Below are positions 1-25,129 of a stretch of DNA of 64,000 nucleotides, in pieces (within the stretch, counting starts at the first letter, position 1; each line of letters starts with the position of its first letter). This DNA comes from Ulvibacter antarcticus (GTDB lineage: Bacteria > Bacteroidota > Bacteroidia > Flavobacteriales > Flavobacteriaceae): assembly GCF_003688405.1 (NCBI RefSeq), contig NZ_REFC01000014.1:434001-498000 (forward strand). The letters are read 5' to 3'. Under the pieces are notes generated by a model, which saw only the letters and a list, made by a program, of their open reading frames with translations, was not told where the DNA came from and did not search any database. A program made the translations under genes and the position numbers.

Positions 1-780
1 GAAGATAGTTCAACAGATAGAACCAGAAAAATTTGTCAAAAGTTAAAGGAAAAGTATCCTTCCAAAATCGAATTGTTTTCGCATGAAAGTAATATTGGAG
101 CAAATGCCAATGGAATTTTTATGTATGAGCAATGCTTTCAAAGCAATGCAAAATATATAGCTTTACTTGAAGGAGATGACTACTGGACCGATCCTTTAAA
201 ATTGCAAAAGCAAGTAGATTTCTTAGAAGCAAATCCAACCTATACTATATGCTTTCATAGGGTACAGTTATTAACCAACGAAGTGCTGGAACCTGATATG
301 AGTGTTGAAGCCAGATACAACAAAATAGAAAAGTTGCCGGCAACCGCTAAAGATCTTATTGAGCAGGGTAATTTTATACATACACCATCCGTCGTATTTC
401 GAAATGTCTTGGAAGAATTTCCATTCGAGTTTAAATATAGTACTGTAGGGGATTATTTTTTATATATCATTCTTTCCCAAAAAGGACCTATTAAAAGATT
501 AGATGATATTATGGCAGTGTACCGAAATAATGTGGGAATTTATTCGACCCTAACCGATGCCGAAATGAATAGAAAGATTGCTGTGTATCAATCCTGCATT
601 TTGTCGTATTTAAAAGACCCGGAATTAAAAGAAATCATGCTTAAAAAACAGTTAGCCTTACTCAATACATTTAAGCCCACTACAAATGAGGTAGATTTGA
701 CTCTCGAGCAGTTTTCAAATCGGTTGGACATGAAATCTTTATGGAAAATTCTAACTTTAAAAATTAAAAAGTTATTCTAA
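1..780 (+). CDS. GT2 glycosyltransferase, 5' end outside window
   Basis: The reading frame is open from the first base, so this is the C-terminal 259 residues of a longer protein. The visible start carries the GT-A nucleotide-sugar motif EDSSTDRT (residues 1-8). EGDDYW (57-62) holds the DxD-type metal-binding acidic pair, followed by DPLKLQKQVDFLE, typical of family 2 glycosyltransferases. It should add one sugar from a nucleotide-sugar donor to the lipid-linked repeat unit at the cytoplasmic membrane face. A TTG at 73 is internal and is not the start. The next gene begins 2 nt after the stop. Donor and acceptor cannot be told. Confidence 0.88.
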   Translation, partial: EDSSTDRTRKICQKLKEKYPSKIELFSHESNIGANANGIFMYEQCFQSNAKYIALLEGDDYWTDPLKLQKQVDFLEANPTYTICFHRVQLLTNEVLEPDMSVEARYNKIEKLPATAKDLIEQGNFIHTPSVVFRNVLEEFPFEFKYSTVGDYFLYIILSQKGPIKRLDDIMAVYRNNVGIYSTLTDAEMNRKIAVYQSCILSYLKDPELKEIMLKKQLALLNTFKPTTNEVDLTLEQFSNRLDMKSLWKILTLKIKKLF

Positions 781-782
781 AT

Positions 783-1709
783 ATGAATTCTAGCTTTATC
801 ATCATCGTTACCTACAACGGCATGCCATGGATTGAAAAATGCCTGAAGAGCTGTGGAGATTATCAGGTGGTGGTGGTCGATAATGCTTCAAGCGATGAAA
901 CGGTTTCTTTTATAAAGGGAAAATTTCCGAAGGTTCAAATATTGCATCAAACAAAGAATCTTGGCTTCGGACAAGCAAATAATACAGGAATTGTGTGGGC
1001 CCTTCAACAAGGTGCAGAGCATTTCTTTCTACTTAATCAAGATGCTTATTTGATAGATGACTGCCTTCAGAAATTGATCACATTTCAAAAAGCCAATCCA
1101 GCATATGGAATTGTAAGTCCGATACATATTACCGCCAATCAAAAGAAGTTGGATAAGAACTTTTCAAGCTATTTAACTTCTCAGTACAATTCCGATTTCT
1201 ATTCCGATTATGTGCTTAAACAGCCTCTCAAACCAGTATATCCTGTTCCTTTCGTAAATGCCGCCGCCTGGTTGCTTTCCGAAGAGATTATTAACACCGT
1301 GGGTGGTTTCGATCCGCTATTTTTCCATTATGGTGAGGACGATAATTATTGTCAGCGAGTGACTTACCACAATTTCAAAATTGGAATACTCCCCGAATGT
1401 TTTATAATCCATGACAGAGTCGATCGAGAAGCGGCTGTGATTGACTTGTTTTCCGAAGCCTATTACAATCAGCAGGAACGTTCATGTAAGGTGAAATATG
1501 CCAATATCAATGACCCTATGGGCCTTAATAATTTAAAAGGAGTTATTGATGGGCTAAAGAAAAGGCTGCTAAAACTAAAACTTAAAGGAAAGTTTGGCAA
1601 ACTCGCGCCCTTAAAAAAGGAAATGGAATTGTACGAAAAAATTGAGCCGCAGATCAAGAAAAGTAGAGATCTAAATGCTAAAAAAGGCCAAACTCATTTA
1701 CAAATCTGA
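783..1709 (+). CDS. GT2 glycosyltransferase, rhamnosyltransferase-like
   Basis: This 308-residue protein has a GT-A fold. The N-terminal IIIVTYNG strand is followed by VVDNASSDET (31-40), NLGFGQANNTG (59-69) and NQDA (85-88) in place of the DxD. This combination is typical of the WbbL/rhamnosyltransferase-like branch of GT2. GGFDPLFFHYGEDDNYCQR is the usual acceptor-side ED motif. The last 80 residues are Lys-rich, as expected for a peripheral membrane enzyme. It starts at ATG 2 nt after the preceding gene. The sugar transferred is unknown. Confidence 0.88.
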   Translation: MNSSFIIIVTYNGMPWIEKCLKSCGDYQVVVVDNASSDETVSFIKGKFPKVQILHQTKNLGFGQANNTGIVWALQQGAEHFFLLNQDAYLIDDCLQKLITFQKANPAYGIVSPIHITANQKKLDKNFSSYLTSQYNSDFYSDYVLKQPLKPVYPVPFVNAAAWLLSEEIINTVGGFDPLFFHYGEDDNYCQRVTYHNFKIGILPECFIIHDRVDREAAVIDLFSEAYYNQQERSCKVKYANINDPMGLNNLKGVIDGLKKRLLKLKLKGKFGKLAPLKKEMELYEKIEPQIKKSRDLNAKKGQTHLQI

Positions 1710-1737
1710 GCATTTTTTAAGAGTACCTTTTAAAATG

Positions 1738-1745
1738 TAACTTTG
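1738..1745 (+). promoter_or_regulatory. Candidate Bacteroidota -7 promoter element
   Basis: TAACTTTG matches the TAnnTTTG consensus of the Bacteroidota primary sigma factor. It sits in a 52-nt gap, one of the few real gaps in the locus, 17 nt before an ATG. A T-rich tract lies at about -33 but no clear TTG. It may be an internal promoter for the genes from 1762 onward. Confidence 0.5.
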
Positions 1746-1761
1746 CCCTATAAAAATCAAC

Positions 1762-2670
1762 ATGCTATTCTCCATCCTCATCGCTAATTATAACAACGGA
1801 AAGTTCTTTCCCGATTGCTATAAAAGTATCATGGCGCAATCCTATACAAATTGGGAGGCGATCATCGTGGATGATGGTTCAACGGATGATTCAGTTGCTG
1901 TAATCAAAGAAATAATAGGGGAGGACGAACGATTTACCTTTATTCAAAGATCCGAAAATAAGGGCTGTGGCTACACCAAACGAGAATGTGCCAAACACGC
2001 AAAAGGTGAAATTTCCGGTTTCTTGGATCCCGATGACACCATACTTGAAGATGCGTTGCAAATTATGGTAGATGAGCATAAAGACCATCCCGATGTTGCC
2101 ATTATTACTTCCCGATACGCGCTGGTCGATATGAAATTGAATTTTATTGAAAATGGATCTCACGGAAGCGCCATTCCAAATGATAAATCCTATCTCACCT
2201 TCGGAAAAGGGGCTTTAACTGCATTTGCCTCCTTCAAACAACAACTGTATGATAAAACGGAAGGGATTGATCCAAATATGAAACGGGCAGTCGATCAGGA
2301 TTTATATTATAAAATGGAAGAGCAGGGCGAGCATCTCTTTCTCGATAAAGTGTTGTACAATTATCGCATTCATGAAAACAGTATTTCCAATAACGAAAAT
2401 CTGTACAAGGCAGAATACTGGCACTTTTACGCTATTATGAATGCCTATAAACGACGAAAACGCCTTGGCCTTAAGCTTGATAATTTTTCTCAAAACTATG
2501 CTAGTGAGTATGCTTCTCGCTATTATCTAACACGTTTTAGAGAGCTTAAACATTCAAAAAAAACTACTTCGAAATTTTATTTTATATGGAAAGCCATACA
2601 TGCGAGCCCTTTCCATCAGTTTAAACACAAGATTAAAAGTTTATTATTGCTAATTTTGGGACGAATATGA
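1762..2670 (+). CDS. GT2 glycosyltransferase
   Basis: This 302-residue family 2 glycosyltransferase has the N-terminal strand SILIANYNN, then VDDGSTDDS (36-44) for UDP/NDP binding and LDPDD (88-92) as the metal-binding DxD. A VDQDLYYKMEEQG segment matches the C-terminal acceptor-site acidic motif. It is cytoplasmic and peripheral. The ATG start follows a candidate promoter. The end overlaps the next gene by 4 nt (ATGA), so the two are probably translationally coupled. Specificity cannot be read. Confidence 0.9.
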   Translation: MLFSILIANYNNGKFFPDCYKSIMAQSYTNWEAIIVDDGSTDDSVAVIKEIIGEDERFTFIQRSENKGCGYTKRECAKHAKGEISGFLDPDDTILEDALQIMVDEHKDHPDVAIITSRYALVDMKLNFIENGSHGSAIPNDKSYLTFGKGALTAFASFKQQLYDKTEGIDPNMKRAVDQDLYYKMEEQGEHLFLDKVLYNYRIHENSISNNENLYKAEYWHFYAIMNAYKRRKRLGLKLDNFSQNYASEYASRYYLTRFRELKHSKKTTSKFYFIWKAIHASPFHQFKHKIKSLLLLILGRI

Positions 2671-3512
2671 AGAATCCCTTAATTTCAATAGTCGTTCCCT
2701 GCTACAACCAGGCGCAGTATCTAGACGCGGCTCTGCAATCTGTTTTGGATCAGACCTACTCGAATTGGGAATGTCTTATCGTTGATGACGGCAGCCCCGA
2801 TAACACTAAGGAAGTTGCTTCTCAATGGGTGGCAAAAGATGAACGTTTTTCCTATTTGCATAAGGTAAATGGGGGTTTGTGTAGTGCGCGTAACTTCGGA
2901 ATTGAGGCTGCAAACGGAGAATTTATCCTTCCGCTGGATGCAGACGATAAGATTGGCAAGGAATATCTCTCAAAAGGGATTGAGGTCTTTCTGAAGGATT
3001 CTTCGCTTAAAGTTGTGTATTGCAAAGCTGAAAAATTTGGAGATGCTTCAGGAGTTTGGGAATTACCACAGTTCAGTTTACATAATTTGAGCCGTTCTAA
3101 TATGATCTTTTGTACAGCACTCTTCAGAAAAGAAGACTGGAAAAAAACGGGTGGTTACGACGAAAATATGGGGCATGGCTGGGAAGATTGGGAATTTTGG
3201 ATCTCTCTTCTGAAAAATGGTGGAAACGTACATCAATTGGATTATCAAGGCTTTTATTATAGAATCAAAGCGGGCTCTATGCTACTTGAAATCGATGCTG
3301 AAAAATCCAAAGAATTACTTGAATATATTAGTGTAAAACATGCCGATTTCTTCGTGAAGCATTACGGTTCTTTCAAATCTTTGGAACATAAAAAACTATA
3401 TTTAAAAAGAGAGTTTGAATCCAATTTAAAAAGTGAGAAGTTTGTAACTGATGCGTTTCTTAAAAAGTTCTTCAGATTTACACTCTTCGGAACTCAAAAA
3501 AAGCAGCGATAA
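2667..3512 (+). CDS. GT2 glycosyltransferase
   Basis: This 281-residue family 2 enzyme shows ISIVVPCYNQ at the N-terminus, VDDGSPDNT (39-47), GLCSARNFG (70-78) and LDADD (90-94). GWEDWEFWISLLKNGG in the second half is the acceptor-side ED motif. It starts within the stop of the previous gene (ATGA overlap). It resembles the proteins at 4658 and 6226, including the WEDWEF-type motif, which suggests related paralogues acting on similar acceptors. Confidence 0.9.
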   Translation: MKNPLISIVVPCYNQAQYLDAALQSVLDQTYSNWECLIVDDGSPDNTKEVASQWVAKDERFSYLHKVNGGLCSARNFGIEAANGEFILPLDADDKIGKEYLSKGIEVFLKDSSLKVVYCKAEKFGDASGVWELPQFSLHNLSRSNMIFCTALFRKEDWKKTGGYDENMGHGWEDWEFWISLLKNGGNVHQLDYQGFYYRIKAGSMLLEIDAEKSKELLEYISVKHADFFVKHYGSFKSLEHKKLYLKREFESNLKSEKFVTDAFLKKFFRFTLFGTQKKQR

Positions 3513-10301: not shown

Positions 10302-11117
10302 ATGAAGAAAAAAATAAGGTTATTCTGGTGGAATGAAAAGAAGCTAATGGGTAAGTCCAAAGAGAATTATGGAGACCTTATGGGGAAGTATTTGGCAGAA
10401 AAGATCTCAGGAAAAAAAGTGGTTTGGGCACATCCTAAAAAAAAGAAACTCAAAAACCTTTTTTCTCCTATTTATGTGACTATAGGAAGTATTTTGGCAA
10501 ATGTTACTTCTAATTGTATCGTTTGGGGTAGTGGTATAATATCTAAAGAGTATCCAGTAAAAAGAGCTGCATTTCTAGCAGTTCGAGGTCCTTACACCAG
10601 AGAGTTTTTGCTCGATTCAGGTTATGATGTCCCGGAGGTGTATGGAGATCCAGCTCTCTTACTTCCAGATTATTACAATCCGAAGTTAGAAAAGAAATAT
10701 AAACTTGCGGTAGTGCCACATTATAATGATTACAAGGCTTTAGAGGAGCAATACAAGTCGGAGAAAGACATTCTGATTATAGATTTAATGACAGACGATA
10801 TTGAGGCAACAACAGATCTTTTCTTGCAAAGTGAACGCGTAATTTCCTCCTCGCTTCACGGATTAATTGTGGCGCATGCATATGGGATACCGGCCATTTG
10901 GACCCCATTTTCAGATAAGTTATTTGGTGATGGGATTAAGTTTAAGGATTATTTTGCTTCGGTTGATATTCCATACTACCAAATGCCTATTCAGAAGAAA
11001 AAAATGACATTAGCAGATATAGATGTATTGTTTCGGGAACATCCAAGTTTGGTGGAACTGGAAAAAATTAAACAATTGCGAGTAGATCTAATGGAAGTCT
11101 GTCCTTTTAAGGGCTAG
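10302..11117 (+). CDS. Polysaccharide pyruvyl transferase family protein
   Basis: This 271-residue protein matches PF04230. YGDLMGKYLAEKISGK near the N-terminus is the NxGD-like opening. Then come TIGSILAN, VWGSGI, AVRGPYTREFL, EVYGDPALLLP and the diagnostic SSLHGLIVAHAYGIPAIW near residue 185-205. The family transfers pyruvate from PEP to sugar hydroxyls as a ketal, adding negative charge to exopolysaccharides; it is cytoplasmic and GT-B-like. Directly upstream of neuABC, it suggests a polymer with several acidic groups. At 271 residues it is slightly short for the family. Confidence 0.85.
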   Translation: MKKKIRLFWWNEKKLMGKSKENYGDLMGKYLAEKISGKKVVWAHPKKKKLKNLFSPIYVTIGSILANVTSNCIVWGSGIISKEYPVKRAAFLAVRGPYTREFLLDSGYDVPEVYGDPALLLPDYYNPKLEKKYKLAVVPHYNDYKALEEQYKSEKDILIIDLMTDDIEATTDLFLQSERVISSSLHGLIVAHAYGIPAIWTPFSDKLFGDGIKFKDYFASVDIPYYQMPIQKKKMTLADIDVLFREHPSLVELEKIKQLRVDLMEVCPFKG

Positions 11118-13024: not shown

Positions 13025-14149
13025 ATGAAAAAAATTACCTTCCTTACTGGTACCAGGGCTGATTTCGGAAAAATTAAATCCTTACTTCAAATTCTGGACA
13101 ATGATCCTGATTTTGAACCACATATTTTCGCGACTGGAATGCACTTGCAGGTGAAATATGGTTATACGGTGAAGGAAATTGAAAAAAGCGGTTTCAAATT
13201 AATTCATACTTTCGATAATCACACTTCTCAAGGTACCATGGATCTCAATTTAGCAAAGACCATCGAAGGTTTTTCCAGCTATGTAAGAGAGTTAAAGCCG
13301 GATTTAATTGTGGTACACGGCGATAGAGTAGAGACCTTGGCAGGGGCAATTGTAGGCGCTTTGAATAATATTTTAGTTGCACATATCGAAGGTGGTGAAA
13401 TTTCAGGAACCGTAGACGAATTGATACGTCACTCCGTAAGTAAGCTAAGTCACTTACACTTTGTTTCCAATGCCTCAGCAGCAAGAAGATTGGAACAAAT
13501 GGGAGAACTGGCAGAGTCAATACATGAGATTGGATCGCCCGATGTTGATATCATGTTTTCAGGTAATCTTCCTGAGCTTCTAGAAGTGAAACGATATTAT
13601 GAAATTCCCTTTGATAGGTATAATGTAGCCATGTTTCATCCGGTGACTACAGAGTACGAGCAAATGGAACAGCATGCCTCGAATTTTGTAGATGCTTTAT
13701 TAGCCGACGATTCTAATTATGTGATTATTTATCCTAATAATGACCTCGGAAGTGACTTTATTTTTAAGGCTTATGAAAGACTTAAGGGCAATTCACGCTT
13801 TAGAATTTTTCCATCAATTAGATTTGAATACTTTTTAACGCTTCTGAAAAAAGCAGATTTTATGATTGGTAATAGCAGCGCCGGAATTCGTGAGGCTCCT
13901 TATTATCATATTCCAACTGTGAACATCGGGACCAGACAACAAAACAGATCGTTACATGACGACATAATACACAGTACCTATAATACTGAAGATATTTGTT
14001 CTTCTATTGAGAAAGCCAAACAACTAAAAGTACAACAAGCCGATGAATCTTTTGGAGAAGGGAACAGTGCAACTCTTTTCTTAGAAGCTTTGAAAAAAGA
14101 GGCCTTGTGGGAATTAAGTAATCAAAAGCAATTCCGTGATAGAATCTAA
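13025..14149 (+). CDS. neuC: UDP-GlcNAc 2-epimerase, hydrolysing
   Basis: This 374-residue GT-B-fold enzyme releases ManNAc (or its 4-acetamido analogue in LegG homologues) from a UDP-sugar, supplying NeuB. Visible motifs are FLTGTRADFGKI (6-17), VVHGDRVETLAG (96-107), HIEGGEISGTVDELIRHSVSKLSHLHF and IGNSSAGIREAPYYHIPTVNIGTRQ near 290-315, all diagnostic of the hydrolysing 2-epimerases. Its length is typical. The next gene starts inside it (14-nt overlap), so both are probably translated together. Confidence 0.92.
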   Translation: MKKITFLTGTRADFGKIKSLLQILDNDPDFEPHIFATGMHLQVKYGYTVKEIEKSGFKLIHTFDNHTSQGTMDLNLAKTIEGFSSYVRELKPDLIVVHGDRVETLAGAIVGALNNILVAHIEGGEISGTVDELIRHSVSKLSHLHFVSNASAARRLEQMGELAESIHEIGSPDVDIMFSGNLPELLEVKRYYEIPFDRYNVAMFHPVTTEYEQMEQHASNFVDALLADDSNYVIIYPNNDLGSDFIFKAYERLKGNSRFRIFPSIRFEYFLTLLKKADFMIGNSSAGIREAPYYHIPTVNIGTRQQNRSLHDDIIHSTYNTEDICSSIEKAKQLKVQQADESFGEGNSATLFLEALKKEALWELSNQKQFRDRI

Positions 14150-15530
14150 AAAAATATTTTTGGTCGTACCCGATGGAGTAGGCCTACGGAATTTTGTTTA
14201 TACTTCTTTTGCTAAAATAGGTGCGGAAAAAGGATGGGATATTACGTATTGGAATAATACTCCCTTTGATTTTACAGAATTCGGACTTCAAGAAGTAAGA
14301 CTCTCCGGAAAAGTGGCTGCTCAGACGGATTTGTATAAACGTGCTCGAAAAGAAATTGAACTTCAAATTTTTGAACAACAGTTTCAGGATGATATCTACA
14401 AAAAATACACCTTCAAACCGGCTTCAGATTCATTCAAAAAAAAGCTAAAAAACTATCTGGTTAGGAGATATATTCAGAAATACAAAGGAGAAAATCTATA
14501 TAAGCTACGGGAAAAAATAAAAGATTCAGAAAGAAAAACCGCCTACTATAAAAACTGTGTTGCTACTCTAAAACAGCATAAGCCGGAAATTGTTTTTTCA
14601 ACGAATCAACGCCCTGTCAATGCAATTTCACCTATAGTTGCCGCGCAGGATTTGGGAATCCCAACGGCAACTTTTATATTTTCCTGGGATAATATTCCGA
14701 AGGCAACGATGGTGATTGAGACCGATTATTACTTTGTTTGGAGTGAGCATATGAAACAGGAATTACTTACCTATTACCCGTATGTCAAGGAAGAACAAAT
14801 TTACATAACCGGAACGCCACAGTTTGAACCACATTTTAATAAGAATTCATTAGTATCCAGAACAGAATTTCTAACTGAAAATAAACTACCTAAGGACAAG
14901 GAGTATATTTGTTATTCGGGCGATGATATTACAACTTCCCCACACGACCCTCAATACTTGGAAGCCGTGGCATTAGCCGTTCGAAAACTAAATGCTGAAG
15001 GACGAAATTTAGGTATTTTGTTTAGGCGATGTCCTGTGGATTTTTCCGATCGTTTCGATTTGGTTTTAGAAACGTATAAAGATATAATTTATAAGCTTCC
15101 ACCAAAATGGGAGAAAAAAGGAGGAGCATGGAATACGGTCGTACCTTTAAAAGAAGATATTGCTCATCAGGCGAATACAATTAATCATTCTGCCTTCGTC
15201 GTGAATGTAGGCTCTTCGATGGTATTCGATTATATCTGCCATAATAAACCCTGTGCTTTTATAAATTATAATCCGGAAGAGGTACCGATTCAAGTAGATA
15301 TACATACCATTTATAAATATGTGCATTTTAGATCGATGCCAACTCCCGAAGCGGTTGTTTGGTTCAATAATACTGATGAAATTTCTGAAAAAATAGAAAA
15401 AATGTTATCCGGAACGCCCGAAATACTAAAAGGAGCACAACAATGGTTCGAAAAGATTAATTTGCATCCTCCCCAAGAAGCATCCCAACGAATTTGGAAC
15501 AGCATCGATCAAATAGTAGATAAAACATAA
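14136..15530 (+). CDS. GT-B-fold transferase, surface carbohydrate synthesis
   Basis: This 464-residue protein follows neuABC. The N-terminal domain opens with IFLVVPDGVGLRNF, has a Lys/Arg-rich helix (about 85-150) and EIVFSTNQRPVNAISPIVAAQDLGIPTATFIFSWDNI. The second domain has WSEHM, YITGTPQFEPH and NVGSSMVFDYICHNKPCAFINYNP, resembling the nucleotide-binding half of CDP-glycerol-transferase/UDP-GlcNAc-epimerase-fold enzymes. GTG start, overlapping neuC by 14 nt; no ATG nearby. Position makes it a candidate for the transferase that uses the CMP-nonulosonate, but no sialyltransferase family motif is visible to me. Confidence 0.62.
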   Translation: MIESKKIFLVVPDGVGLRNFVYTSFAKIGAEKGWDITYWNNTPFDFTEFGLQEVRLSGKVAAQTDLYKRARKEIELQIFEQQFQDDIYKKYTFKPASDSFKKKLKNYLVRRYIQKYKGENLYKLREKIKDSERKTAYYKNCVATLKQHKPEIVFSTNQRPVNAISPIVAAQDLGIPTATFIFSWDNIPKATMVIETDYYFVWSEHMKQELLTYYPYVKEEQIYITGTPQFEPHFNKNSLVSRTEFLTENKLPKDKEYICYSGDDITTSPHDPQYLEAVALAVRKLNAEGRNLGILFRRCPVDFSDRFDLVLETYKDIIYKLPPKWEKKGGAWNTVVPLKEDIAHQANTINHSAFVVNVGSSMVFDYICHNKPCAFINYNPEEVPIQVDIHTIYKYVHFRSMPTPEAVVWFNNTDEISEKIEKMLSGTPEILKGAQQWFEKINLHPPQEASQRIWNSIDQIVDKT

Positions 15531-16666
15531 TGCACCTCGCCTTCCTCACATCCGAGTATCCCCATCCCAGTGTAAACCGAGCTGCAGGGATTGGTACCAG
15601 TATAAAAAATCTGGCAGAAGGTCTTGTGGAGAAGAACATTAAAATTAGCCTTTTCATTTACGGGCAGGACACTAATCTGGTCTTTGAAGAAAGCGGAATT
15701 ACTTTTCACCTAATAAAACACATCAATTACCCATTTTTAGGATGGTTACGTTATAGAAAACATATTGCATCTTATATCAATAAAGTAGCTAAAAAGGAGA
15801 AAATCGACGCGATTGAAGCCGCAGATTGGACCGGAATTACAGCTTTTATGAAGTTGTCTATTCCTTTGGTGATAAGACTTCACGGCACAGATGCTTATTT
15901 TTGTCATTTAGAAGGACGATCGCAAAAGAAGAAAAATCGCTGGTTTGAGGCTACTGCTCTTAAAAATGCGGATGCCATTATTTCGGTGAGTGATTACACT
16001 GCAAAAATGACCACGGAAATTTTTGGATTAAAGTCAAATATTACAACACTTTACAATGGTATCGATACTAACAAATTTAAGCCGTTGCACCTTCCTAAGG
16101 AGGCGAATACGATCTTGTATTTTGGGACTATTGTTCGAAAAAAGGGCGTGTTGGATCTTGCGAAAGCATTTCAGATCCTTAAAAATGAGAACCCAGATGC
16201 AACCTTGACCTTAATAGGAAAGGATAATGTCGATATCTTCGAGAAACGATCTACCTTGGAGCTGTTTAATGAACTTCTGGATGAGAAATATCGATCTTCT
16301 GTGAAACACTTACAACATATGCCATATGAAGATGTGGTGAAGGAAATCGCCAAAGCCGGAGTAGTTGTTTTGCCAAGTCGGGCTGAGGCTTTTCCTATGA
16401 GTTGGTTGGAAGCCATGGCAATGGAAAAGGCCTTGGTGACTTCCAATATTGGTTGGGCAAAGGAGTTAATGATCGCTGATAAAACGGGTCTCATGGTGTC
16501 TCCAGACGATCATCAGGGATTGGCGGAGGCTATATTAAAGATCTTAAATGATGAGAAGCTTGCTAATGAATTTGGAATAAATGCAAGAAAACGGATCGTC
16601 GATCATTTTTCTTCGGAAATAATTGTAGATAAGAATATCGAATATTATAAAACGCTCACTTCTTGA
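15530..16666 (+). CDS. GT4 family glycosyltransferase
   Basis: This 378-residue GT-B enzyme has HLAFLTSEYPHPSVNRAAGIGTSIKNLAEGL as the GT4 N-terminal opening with its glycine-rich acceptor loop. YFGTIVRKKGVLDLAKAF opens domain 2. PSRAEAFPMSWLEAMAMEKALVTSNIGW is the EX7E-type donor-binding motif (E-A-F-P-M-S-W-L-E). It is retaining and cytoplasmic. Its ATG overlaps the previous TAA by 1 nt, and the next gene starts inside its stop (TTGA). Confidence 0.9.
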   Translation: MHLAFLTSEYPHPSVNRAAGIGTSIKNLAEGLVEKNIKISLFIYGQDTNLVFEESGITFHLIKHINYPFLGWLRYRKHIASYINKVAKKEKIDAIEAADWTGITAFMKLSIPLVIRLHGTDAYFCHLEGRSQKKKNRWFEATALKNADAIISVSDYTAKMTTEIFGLKSNITTLYNGIDTNKFKPLHLPKEANTILYFGTIVRKKGVLDLAKAFQILKNENPDATLTLIGKDNVDIFEKRSTLELFNELLDEKYRSSVKHLQHMPYEDVVKEIAKAGVVVLPSRAEAFPMSWLEAMAMEKALVTSNIGWAKELMIADKTGLMVSPDDHQGLAEAILKILNDEKLANEFGINARKRIVDHFSSEIIVDKNIEYYKTLTS

Positions 16667-22717: not shown

Positions 22718-23702
22718 ATTAAGCACCAAAGGCGTTACGGCATCGACTATTGATAGTTTAAGCACCTTATTGGAAGAAGAAGACTATAAAGTATACACTG
22801 CGTCCTCCTTTAAAAATAAACTGCTTCGGTTCTTAGATATGCTATGGGCGGTTTTACGCTATTCTAAAAAGGTATCAGTTGTCTTAATAGATACTTACAG
22901 CACTCAAAATTTCTATTATGCAGTGGCTGTAGCAAAACTGTGTAGAATGCTTGGATTGGACTACATTCCTATTTTACATGGTGGAAATCTACCCGACCGA
23001 CTTAAAAAGAGTCCGGTGTTGTCAAGAAAATTGTTTAAAAATGCCAAGTCAAACGTTTCTCCATCAATGTATTTGATAGAAGCGTTTAAATCGCATGGCT
23101 TTGATAATCTAACCCACATTCCAAATTCAATTGAACTAGAAAATTATCCTTTTTTACTTCGGAAGGAATTGCAACCTAAACTTTTATGGGTGCGTTCGTT
23201 TACAGAAATTTACAATCCGTTGCTAGCCTTGGATGTGGTCGAATTACTTCAGAAGAAAGGAATAGACGTTTCACTCACCATGGTTGGACCGGAAAAAGAT
23301 GGTTCTCTGGAAAAGTGTGAAAAGGAAGTAGAGAAGCGGAATCTCCCAGTCACGTTCACAGGAAAATTGAAAAAATCGGAATGGTTACTTCTTTCCGAAG
23401 ATCATGATATTTTTATAAATACTACGAATTTCGATAATACACCGGTGAGTGTGATTGAAGCAATGGCGCTCGGACTTCCTGTAATATCCACAAATGTAGG
23501 GGGAATTCCGCACTTAATTTCCGACAAACAGACCGGAATTCTAGTGCCGCCAAATGATTCAGCAGCAATTGAAAAAGCTATAAATCAACTTCTTAACGAA
23601 CCCGATTTAGGGCTTACGATCTCCAAAAATGCACGAAAAAGTATAGAAACCTTCGACTGGCAAAAGGTAAAAGTCCGATGGCATGTCCTTTTGAACGAAT
23701 AA
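22683..23702 (+). CDS. GT4 family glycosyltransferase
   Basis: This 339-residue GT-B protein opens with LLYVGNKLSTKGVTASTIDSLSTLL. The N-terminal domain includes IPILHGGNLPDRLKKSP. The donor domain shows LLWVRSFTEIYNPLLALDVVELL and INTTNFDNTPVSVIEAMALGLPVISTNVGGIPHL, an EX7E-like motif with the first Glu replaced by Asn/Asp (NFDNTPVSVIE). Its ATG lies 35 nt inside the Wzy gene, an unusually long overlap for this locus. It ends within the coding-compatible frame upstream of the sugar-1-phosphate transferase. Confidence 0.88.
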   Translation: MEKRSLLYVGNKLSTKGVTASTIDSLSTLLEEEDYKVYTASSFKNKLLRFLDMLWAVLRYSKKVSVVLIDTYSTQNFYYAVAVAKLCRMLGLDYIPILHGGNLPDRLKKSPVLSRKLFKNAKSNVSPSMYLIEAFKSHGFDNLTHIPNSIELENYPFLLRKELQPKLLWVRSFTEIYNPLLALDVVELLQKKGIDVSLTMVGPEKDGSLEKCEKEVEKRNLPVTFTGKLKKSEWLLLSEDHDIFINTTNFDNTPVSVIEAMALGLPVISTNVGGIPHLISDKQTGILVPPNDSAAIEKAINQLLNEPDLGLTISKNARKSIETFDWQKVKVRWHVLLNE

Positions 23703-23707
23703 ATACT

Positions 23708-23715
23708 TATTTTTG
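23708..23715 (+). promoter_or_regulatory. Candidate -7 element before the sugar transferase
   Basis: TATTTTTG matches TAnnTTTG just after the upstream stop, 19 nt before ATG 23735. A TTTTG lies at 23689-23693, closer than the ideal -33 spacing. If real, the terminal gene of the locus has its own promoter, and the upstream in-frame ATG at 23678 cannot be its start. Confidence 0.45.
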
Positions 23716-23734
23716 CACATGCCAAAACCAGATC

Positions 23735-25129
23735 ATGGACCAAAAGTCTAGTATTCACTTTGATATTTCGGAAAGAAAAGTACTATTGCGCATACTGGAC
23801 GTAGTAAGTGTATTGGGACTGCTTTATATAGTAGGTCAAGTGTTTGATTTCGATTACTTTAAGATTAATTCTACACACTGGGTTTGGTCTATTGTATTAG
23901 GACTATACCTTACAATTTTTGCTACTATTTTTGAACTTTATGACTTGCAGAAGGCGAGCAAATTCGAAGTTGTAGTTCAGAATGTAATCCTTACATCTTC
24001 GGTAACAGTACTCTTTTATCTACTTACACCCTTTTTCACTCCAACTTTGCCTGTAAATCGATTGCAGATTGTTTATTTCTATATTTCGGTAAATGTTTCG
24101 CTTTTTCTTTGGCGATATGCATATATAGTATTGGTTTCGGCACCTCGATTTTTTAAAAGGATATTACTCATTGGAGATGCATCCGATATTGACACCATTG
24201 TGACTTCCCTTCAAAAATCGGATCCCAATTATAAAGTTGTTGGTTTTATCAATACGAGTAAAGAGAAATATGTGGCCCCTCATTTTAGAGAGTTTGACGA
24301 GTATAAAGTAAAAGAGATCGACAAAATTGTAAGAACAAAATCAATTTCCGAGATTGTTGTCGCAACTCCTCAATCCAGTGGGATGACTGTTAAACTATAC
24401 AATAAACTCATTGTCTTATTGGAAGGTGGCCTGTCTATTCGGGCGTATACTCAGGTGTACGAAGAAATTACGCATCGAATTCCAGTACAGCATGTGGATA
24501 AGGATTTTTATAATTTTTTCCCATTTAGTCGCAGTAATCAAAACAAGCTTTATCTTTTCTTTCACAGGATATTAGATCTTTTGTTTTCAGTGATAGGACT
24601 CGTTTTCGGACTTATTTTGTTTCCTGTTATTCTCTTCGGAAACCTTTTCGCAAATAAGGGACCTTTGTTTTACACTCAAATACGTGTTGGTAAAAACGGG
24701 CAGCATTTTAAGATTTACAAATTAAGAAGCATGGTGACCGATGCAGAGAAAGATGGGGCTCAATTTGCTTCTGCCGGCGACTCCAGAGTTACCAAATTTG
24801 GGCGTTTTCTTCGGAAATCCCGTTTCGATGAAATCCCGCAGTTTATTAACGTAATACTAGGAGATATGAGTGTAATAGGACCCAGACCCGAGCGACCGGT
24901 ATTTGTGAAAGAACTCTCCGATAAAATTCCTTTTTACGAAGTGCGACACTTAGTAAAACCAGGAGTAACCGGCTGGGCACAGGTAAACGCCAAATACGGT
25001 TCTTCGGAAGAAGACGCACTAGAAAAACTCCAATACGATCTTTATTACATCAAACACCGAAGCCTGTTTCTAGATATCAGTATTGTAATAAAGACCTTAA
25101 GTACGATCATTTTCTATAGAGGACAGTAA
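23735..25129 (+). CDS. Polyprenyl-phosphate sugar-1-phosphate transferase (initiating)
   Basis: This 464-residue PNPT/PHPT enzyme of the WbaP/WcaJ type starts repeat-unit synthesis by moving a sugar-1-phosphate from a UDP-sugar to undecaprenyl phosphate. Four N-terminal membrane segments are followed by a CoA-binding-like Rossmann domain (KRILLIGDASDIDTIV). One more hydrophobic segment (LLFSVIGLVFGLILFPVILF) precedes the bacterial sugar transferase domain: KIYKLRSM, FGRFLRKSRFDEIPQ and MSVIGPRPERP. I prefer ATG 23735 over 23678 because the longer start overlaps the previous gene and a -7 box. It closes the locus. Confidence 0.93.
   Translation: MDQKSSIHFDISERKVLLRILDVVSVLGLLYIVGQVFDFDYFKINSTHWVWSIVLGLYLTIFATIFELYDLQKASKFEVVVQNVILTSSVTVLFYLLTPFFTPTLPVNRLQIVYFYISVNVSLFLWRYAYIVLVSAPRFFKRILLIGDASDIDTIVTSLQKSDPNYKVVGFINTSKEKYVAPHFREFDEYKVKEIDKIVRTKSISEIVVATPQSSGMTVKLYNKLIVLLEGGLSIRAYTQVYEEITHRIPVQHVDKDFYNFFPFSRSNQNKLYLFFHRILDLLFSVIGLVFGLILFPVILFGNLFANKGPLFYTQIRVGKNGQHFKIYKLRSMVTDAEKDGAQFASAGDSRVTKFGRFLRKSRFDEIPQFINVILGDMSVIGPRPERPVFVKELSDKIPFYEVRHLVKPGVTGWAQVNAKYGSSEEDALEKLQYDLYYIKHRSLFLDISIVIKTLSTIIFYRGQ

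Follow-up and report, generated by a model that had tools for sequence, protein, structure and literature searches.

GT*, as we label the 464-residue product of an open reading frame in a 64,000-nucleotide stretch of the Ulvibacter antarcticus genome (the window), probably represents a divergent, putative family of CMP-nonulosonate (CMP-NulO) transferases of the Flavobacteriaceae, remotely related to the BFO_1060 family of glycosyltransferases. GT* probably attaches sialic-acid-like sugars, because at nearly all of its places in the relatives examined it adjoins genes that make these sugars in activated form. The support thereby gained for the original prediction of a cytidine-nucleotide-dependent transferase is comparative in kind, and includes the company that GT* keeps with NulO modules; the family searches assigned it to no other donor class. 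A fuller version, which we also favour though with distinctly less assurance, would make GT* the type of a new CMP-NulO transferase family, common throughout the Flavobacteriaceae, with a CMP site in which the motif histidine is replaced, with an ordinary GT-B fold nearer to TagF/TarL and NeuC than to the known sialyltransferases, and with separate branches for Neu/Leg-like and Kdn-like donors. The final step of the bacterial pathways for sialic-acid-like sugars, which NulO transferases carry out, is poorly known. If true, the assignment would explain how the many flavobacteria that have the pathway without a recognisable sialyltransferase make use of NulOs, and would make naturally occurring variants of the enzyme available for donors of both the Neu/Leg-like and the Kdn-like kind.

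The GT* gene and its neighbours

The reading frame is exactly as originally described in extent, length and GTG start, and it contains no internal stops (Table 1). Its first 14 nt overlap the preceding gene, because the NeuC-like frame runs from 13025 to 14149 and GT* begins at 14136; locus L066 has the same 14-nt overlap. GT* is a real gene, with full-length homologues, 49 places of occurrence in relatives and a confident AF2 model. The homologues in a 23-row alignment (A1) share 24-66% identity, and A1 has 29 invariant columns, including SWDN at 183-186, GTPQF at 226-230, R297, P300, S360, D365 and H397.

Table 1. Coordinates of GT*, its conserved motifs and its neighbours within the window
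Feature	Position	Strand	Remarks
NeuA-like CMP-nonulosonate cytidylyltransferase, 226 aa	11201..11881	+	PF02348 77.6 bits; nearest NCBIfam PseF 135.9, below cut-off 205.7
NeuB-family NulO synthase with SAF domain, 349 aa	11928..12977	+	PF03102 234 bits; PF08666 32.5
NeuC-like hydrolysing UDP-GlcNAc 2-epimerase, 374 aa	13025..14149	+	TIGR03568 418.7, cut-off 235.9
Overlap of neuC end and GT* start	14136..14149	+	14 nt
GT*, proposed CMP-nonulosonate transferase, GT-B fold	14136..15530	+	464 aa, GTG start
S183-W184-D185-N186 motif codons	14682..14693	+	Invariant in 23/23 alignment rows; W, D, N in 49/49
R297-R-C-P300 codons	15024..15035	+	Site of (K/R)xHP in relatives; R, P in 49/49
S360-S361...D365 codons, putative GT-B nucleotide-binding motif	15213..15230	+	S360, D365 in 49/49; position 361 S or T
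GT4a, GT4-type glycosyltransferase, rival candidate	15530..16666	+	PF00534 124 bits; 1-nt overlap with GT*

The genes upstream of GT* had been taken as a trio for CMP-NulO synthesis. Of these, NeuC exceeds the TIGR03568 cut-off; NeuB falls just below that of TIGR03569 (398.3 against 399.65) and NeuA stays under that of PseF. The LegC model finds its best match in the genome on another contig, at 375 against 420, and the product of the window's module may be Neu5Ac-like or legionaminate-like. On the 3' side, GT* is followed by GT4a, two GT2 proteins, more GT4 proteins and a Wzy_C protein, and the locus is read here as a Wzy-type surface polysaccharide cluster. A PS_pyruv_trans (PF04230) protein encoded at 10302-11117 of the window adjoins NeuA; its cluster is present in 13 loci and stands directly before GT* in four cases. 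A second NeuB-family gene of the same genome lies outside the window (G000, contig C1:378642-379358).

Company with CMP-NulO synthesis genes

Homologues of GT* occupy 49 places in 48 of 198 genomes of relatives. Gene context was evaluated over about 20 kb per place (about 10 kb on each side), that is, in 48 regions plus the window, two of them clipped at contig ends. At least one of NeuA, NeuB and NeuC is found near GT* at 48 of the 49 places, which is the consistent company with CMP-NulO synthesis genes expected of a CMP-NulO transferase, and the reverse of a gene commonly residing in loci without neuABC, a pattern that would tell against the original prediction. Taken separately, NeuA-like proteins are encoded at 47 places, NeuB-family proteins at 45 and NeuC at 35; NeuB is never further than 10 kb from GT* at its 45 places, and in 44 of these it lies upstream on the same strand. 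At the level of genomes, NeuB (PF03102) is present in 91 of the 198 and NeuC, by scores above the TIGR03568 cut-off, in 55, with NeuB found in 47 of the 48 GT* genomes versus 44 of the 150 others (Fisher 7.6e-19, uncorrected for kinship).

NeuA is missing near GT* at two places: L069, a short contig that carries NeuB and NeuC, and L080, which is a true exception to the NulO company. In L080 (genome G073, one contig), an intact GT* and downstream glycosyltransferases are present without NeuA, NeuB or NeuC nearby, and the genome has no NeuB; the module may have been lost, another CMP-sugar may be used, or NulO may be scavenged. Among the 80 named loci, a set that overlaps the 49 places, a NeuA, NeuB or NeuC homologue is found in 75. 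The genomes of the other loci (L130, L131, L136, L186 and L199) all have NeuB-family matches elsewhere, those in the genome of L199 being fragments only, and L150 has NeuA in the locus and no NeuB match in its genome. One named locus, L161, belongs to Ulvibacter litoralis and carries a GT* relative. Another, L164, is a GT* locus of flavobacterial type inside a metagenome-assembled genome labelled Candidatus Nitrotoga, and probably represents a mis-binned contig.

The gene directly upstream of GT* on the same strand encodes NeuA, NeuC or a short NeuB at 19 of the 49 places and an AsnB-like amidotransferase at 9 more (28/49 together), so that the partner varies between loci while GT* stays. The AsnB-like protein (cluster c19; L065:7464-9158 and nine more) occurs in 10 GT* loci in all, and perhaps serves in NulO amidation or amidine modification. 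In L095 (8262-9209), L061, L093 and L103, the gene directly before GT* encodes a D-2-hydroxyacid dehydrogenase (cluster c49).

The NulO modules themselves can be divided into three types. Identity to the window's NeuC is bimodal, with 59-80% in type N (11 loci including the window) and about 29-33% in type L (24 loci), and type K (13 loci) has a short NeuB and no NeuC; L096, with a short NeuB as well as NeuC, was labelled L, and L080 carries no label. The NeuA-like protein of type K measures 384-404 aa in 11 of the 13 loci. In L074, the one type-K locus in which the HAD part was scanned, the C-terminal half of NeuA matches KdsC over the cut-off (132.6 bits) and the KDN-9-phosphate phosphatase model below it (129.2 against 180). 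The genes at L074:6923-8077 and L074:8091-8966 thus present a NeuA-like protein fused to a KdsC/KDN-9-phosphatase-like HAD domain, beside a short NeuB, and from this architecture we infer that type K is a compact CMP-Kdn-like module. Since 13 loci have this Kdn-like module in place of neuC, GT* tracks NulO modules broadly.

Family relationships and the putative CMP site

No Pfam or NCBIfam family matches GT* above its curated cut-off, the nearest being PF04464 at 19.8 (cut-off 22.1) and NF046086, the "BFO_1060 family glycosyltransferase", at 36 (cut-off 200), and the family searches assigned GT* to no other class of donor. The claim that no sialyltransferase family is recognisable is borne out as well: sialyltransferase Pfams are absent from the 19 cluster proteins scanned, GT* among them (four ORFs at 73-3512 and one at 23678-25129 lay outside the scan), and neither the GT80, GT52 and GT42 Pfams nor PF05159 Capsule_synth, the latter searched in this genome alone, match anything in the window's genome. 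Across the 198 genomes, nothing reaches the cut-offs of PF11477 (GT80) and PF06002 (GT42), and PF07922 (GT52) has a match in two genomes, G013 and G087, both of which also encode GT*. In G013, which contains two NulO modules, GT* adjoins the Kdn-like one and GT52 lies at a distance of about 6 kb from the second; in G087, GT52 and GT* lie about 50 kb apart on the same contig. A phmmer search of the PDB with the single GT* sequence gave chance-level matches only, the NF046086 profile search returned unrelated chains only, and a plasmid search found nothing. In a literature search of partial coverage, no description of the GT* family was found, and the excerpts of PMC12871550 and PMC5561996 contain nothing on the GT* gene.

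By profile-profile comparison, GT* and NF046086 are remotely homologous (hhalign, 287 columns, prob 98.1, E 1.1e-13). Members of NF046086 are likewise of GT-B type and, as with GT*, have a NeuB-family gene nearby, in 9 of the 10 fetched loci (L110 being the exception); they differ in the N-terminal part and in keeping a motif histidine that GT* lacks, and the score of GT* stays far below their cut-off. Proteins above this cut-off occur in 12 genomes out of the 395 examined for the phylum. In locus L112, neighbouring proteins exceed the PseB, PseC and PseI cut-offs and another, PseG-like, narrowly misses its own, and the NF046086 member also matches PF05159 Capsule_synth with 29 bits (cut-off 20). 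In locus L119, PseC and PseI are over cut-off. This pseudaminate locus (L119:7799-16971) brings together the NF046086 member and two GT* homologues, c237 and c241, with HMMER values of 3.9e-75 and 3.2e-44 in a seven-sequence set.

The histidine in question belongs to (K/R)XHP, described as a CMP-binding motif of families GT29, 38, 42, 52, 80, 99 and 107, and no activity was detected once this H was changed to A in KrkA (PMC12887879, excerpts). In c241, R-P-H-P is aligned to the R-R-C-P of GT*, and K-x-H-P is invariant in NF046086 (KQHP in the alignment). GT* itself retains R297 and P300 at 49 of 49 places and lacks the histidine at all of them, position 299 being C, S, A or V. With the arginine and proline kept where c241 and NF046086 have (K/R)xHP, this pattern suggests, though it does not prove, that GT* has a CMP site from which the histidine of the motif has disappeared.

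Several characterised enzymes can be compared with GT*. In Tannerella forsythia, GtfS (Tanf_01245) and TFUB4_00887 have been tied to the transfer of Pse and Leg derivatives by knock-out and glycan mass spectrometry, and according to the excerpts describing them, they resemble GT* in type (GT-B), in size (445 and 442 aa) and in being encoded beside a CMP-NulO module in Bacteroidota (PMC6388019, PMC6120980). BFO_ is the locus tag of T. forsythia 92A2 (PMC7468200, excerpt), and BFO_1060 may be GtfS: in the type strain gtfL and gtfS are 11 genes apart, and the locus tags of BFO_1060 and the glycosyltransferase BFO_1049 show the same spacing, the identity of BFO_1049 being assumed. Families GT99, GT107, GT118 and GT140 (WbbB, KpsC, KpsS1 and KrkA) are also GT-B-type, use CMP-2-ulosonate donors and carry a (K/R)xHP-like motif within the C-domain (PMC12887879, PMC10148158, excerpts). 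In contrast to these retaining Kdo/Pse transferases, GT* has neither the motif histidine nor a conserved QXXXD: the motif with the nucleophilic Asp known from GT99, GT107 and GT140 is absent from A1, in which the invariant Gln at 158 and 229 have no Asp at +4. The novelty originally ascribed to GT* has therefore to be narrowed, since it has a relative in NF046086 and is preceded by the Tannerella GtfS and TFUB4_00887; what stands is that it is unmatched above cut-off in Pfam and NCBIfam.

In the proposed mechanism, GT* would act as a cytoplasmic GT-B glycosyltransferase that takes CMP-NulO from the NeuC-NeuB-NeuA set encoded just upstream, the donor being Neu5Ac-like or legionaminate-like in the window and Kdn-like in sister loci, and would add the NulO to the growing repeat unit of the surface polysaccharide. 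The C-domain may bind CMP, contacting its base through R297/P300, its phosphate through S360/S361 and its ribose through D365, and N-domain residues, for example D13, Q158-R159 and SWDN, may line the sugar and acceptor side.

Trees, fold and competing readings

The points that speak against GT* as a CMP-NulO transferase are the histidine missing at 49 of 49 places, L080, the linkage to GT4a, the UDP-dependent fold matches, the N/L label and the second change that the K label takes on the full tree. Linkage bears on the most serious rival, according to which GT4a or another conserved glycosyltransferase of the cluster transfers the NulO and GT*, being merely linked, moves an ordinary neighbouring sugar; we regard this as unlikely. 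GT4a is present in 47 of the 49 GT* loci and, at E<=1e-60, in 37 of the 198 genomes, 36 of which are GT* genomes. GT4a is thus almost as locus-bound as GT*, and therefore co-occurrence alone cannot choose the transferase; the genome spread of GT4a, tried as a discriminator, did not separate the two. Against GT4a stands that it exceeds ordinary GT4 Pfam cut-offs, and that L099 has GT*, NeuA and a short NeuB but no GT4a within its 20 kb.

The trees were compared over the same 39 loci (21 L, 10 N and 8 K, without L072, L074, L077, L085 and L099 of the 13 K loci) by counting the label changes that each tree requires. The K label takes 1 change on the GT* tree versus 4 on that of GT4a and 5 on that of GT4b, and all labels together take 9, 13 and 13, respectively; over the 31 loci shared with GT2b, GT* needs 9 changes versus 14. 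By this measure, the Kdn-like module is tracked more closely by the tree of GT* than by those of GT4a, GT4b and GT2b. The N/L label is not better followed by GT*, with 8 changes versus 10 for GT4a and 8 for GT4b in the 39 loci. When all 48 rows are kept in the GT* tree, 11 changes suffice for the three labels versus a mean of 20.8 after shuffling (0 of 200 shuffles as low), and the K label requires 2, since L099, on its long branch, is separated from the other K loci. Part of the agreement could stem from linkage to the module.

The fold was modelled with AF2 from alignment A2, which holds 76 of 80 possible rows and uses 75 of the 80 named loci (those omitted as too short or of odd length include L128, L180, L185, L188 and L190). 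The model, with a mean pLDDT of 94.6 and a pTM of 0.92, has two Rossmann-like domains and finds matches of Z 18.9-24.2 among the 50 listed; the NeuC/WecB epimerases come out best (Z 24, with 331-338 residues aligned), and MurG (20.6), MGD1 (20.6) and TarL (20.4) are also among them. A separate C-domain model (alignment A4, mean pLDDT 85.9) reaches Z 15.5 with TreT (177 residues) and Z 14.2 with TagF (210 residues, 17% identity). Among the matches listed, the best ones of both whole model and C-domain are mostly UDP-dependent enzymes, and structures of the sialyltransferases (GT42/GT52/GT80) and of WbbB, KpsC, KpsS1 and KrkA are not among the 50 listed for either, an absence that rules out none of these classes. 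GT* is thus predicted to have an ordinary GT-B fold, which does not identify the donor.

A CDP-glycerol-transferase-like second domain had been part of the original prediction. This likeness is real but not exclusive, because the C-domain matches TreT and TagF alike: in the profile search TarL comes closest among proteins of solved structure (E 0.0058), yet PF04464 stays below cut-off and the TagF/TarL matches (Z 13.7-14.2) are no better than those to many UDP-sugar GT-B enzymes (Z 14-15.5). As an argument for a cytidine-linked donor it is not specific, the matches being those of a generic GT-B protein. The same sub-threshold PF04464 score, TarL profile hit and C-domain match to TagF might also suggest that GT* is itself a CDP-polyol (glycerol or ribitol) phosphotransferase like TagF/TarL; however, with its genomic company being CMP-NulO synthesis and none of the Pfam-scanned cluster proteins recognised as making CDP-glycerol or CDP-ribitol, we consider this very improbable. 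We consider it equally improbable that GT* is no transferase and serves the NulO pathway as an additional epimerase or hydrolase with the NeuC fold: its best structural matches are indeed the epimerases, but NeuC is already there in 35 of the 49 GT* loci, GT* also occurs in Kdn-like loci without NeuC, and the sequence links of GT* lead to transferase families.
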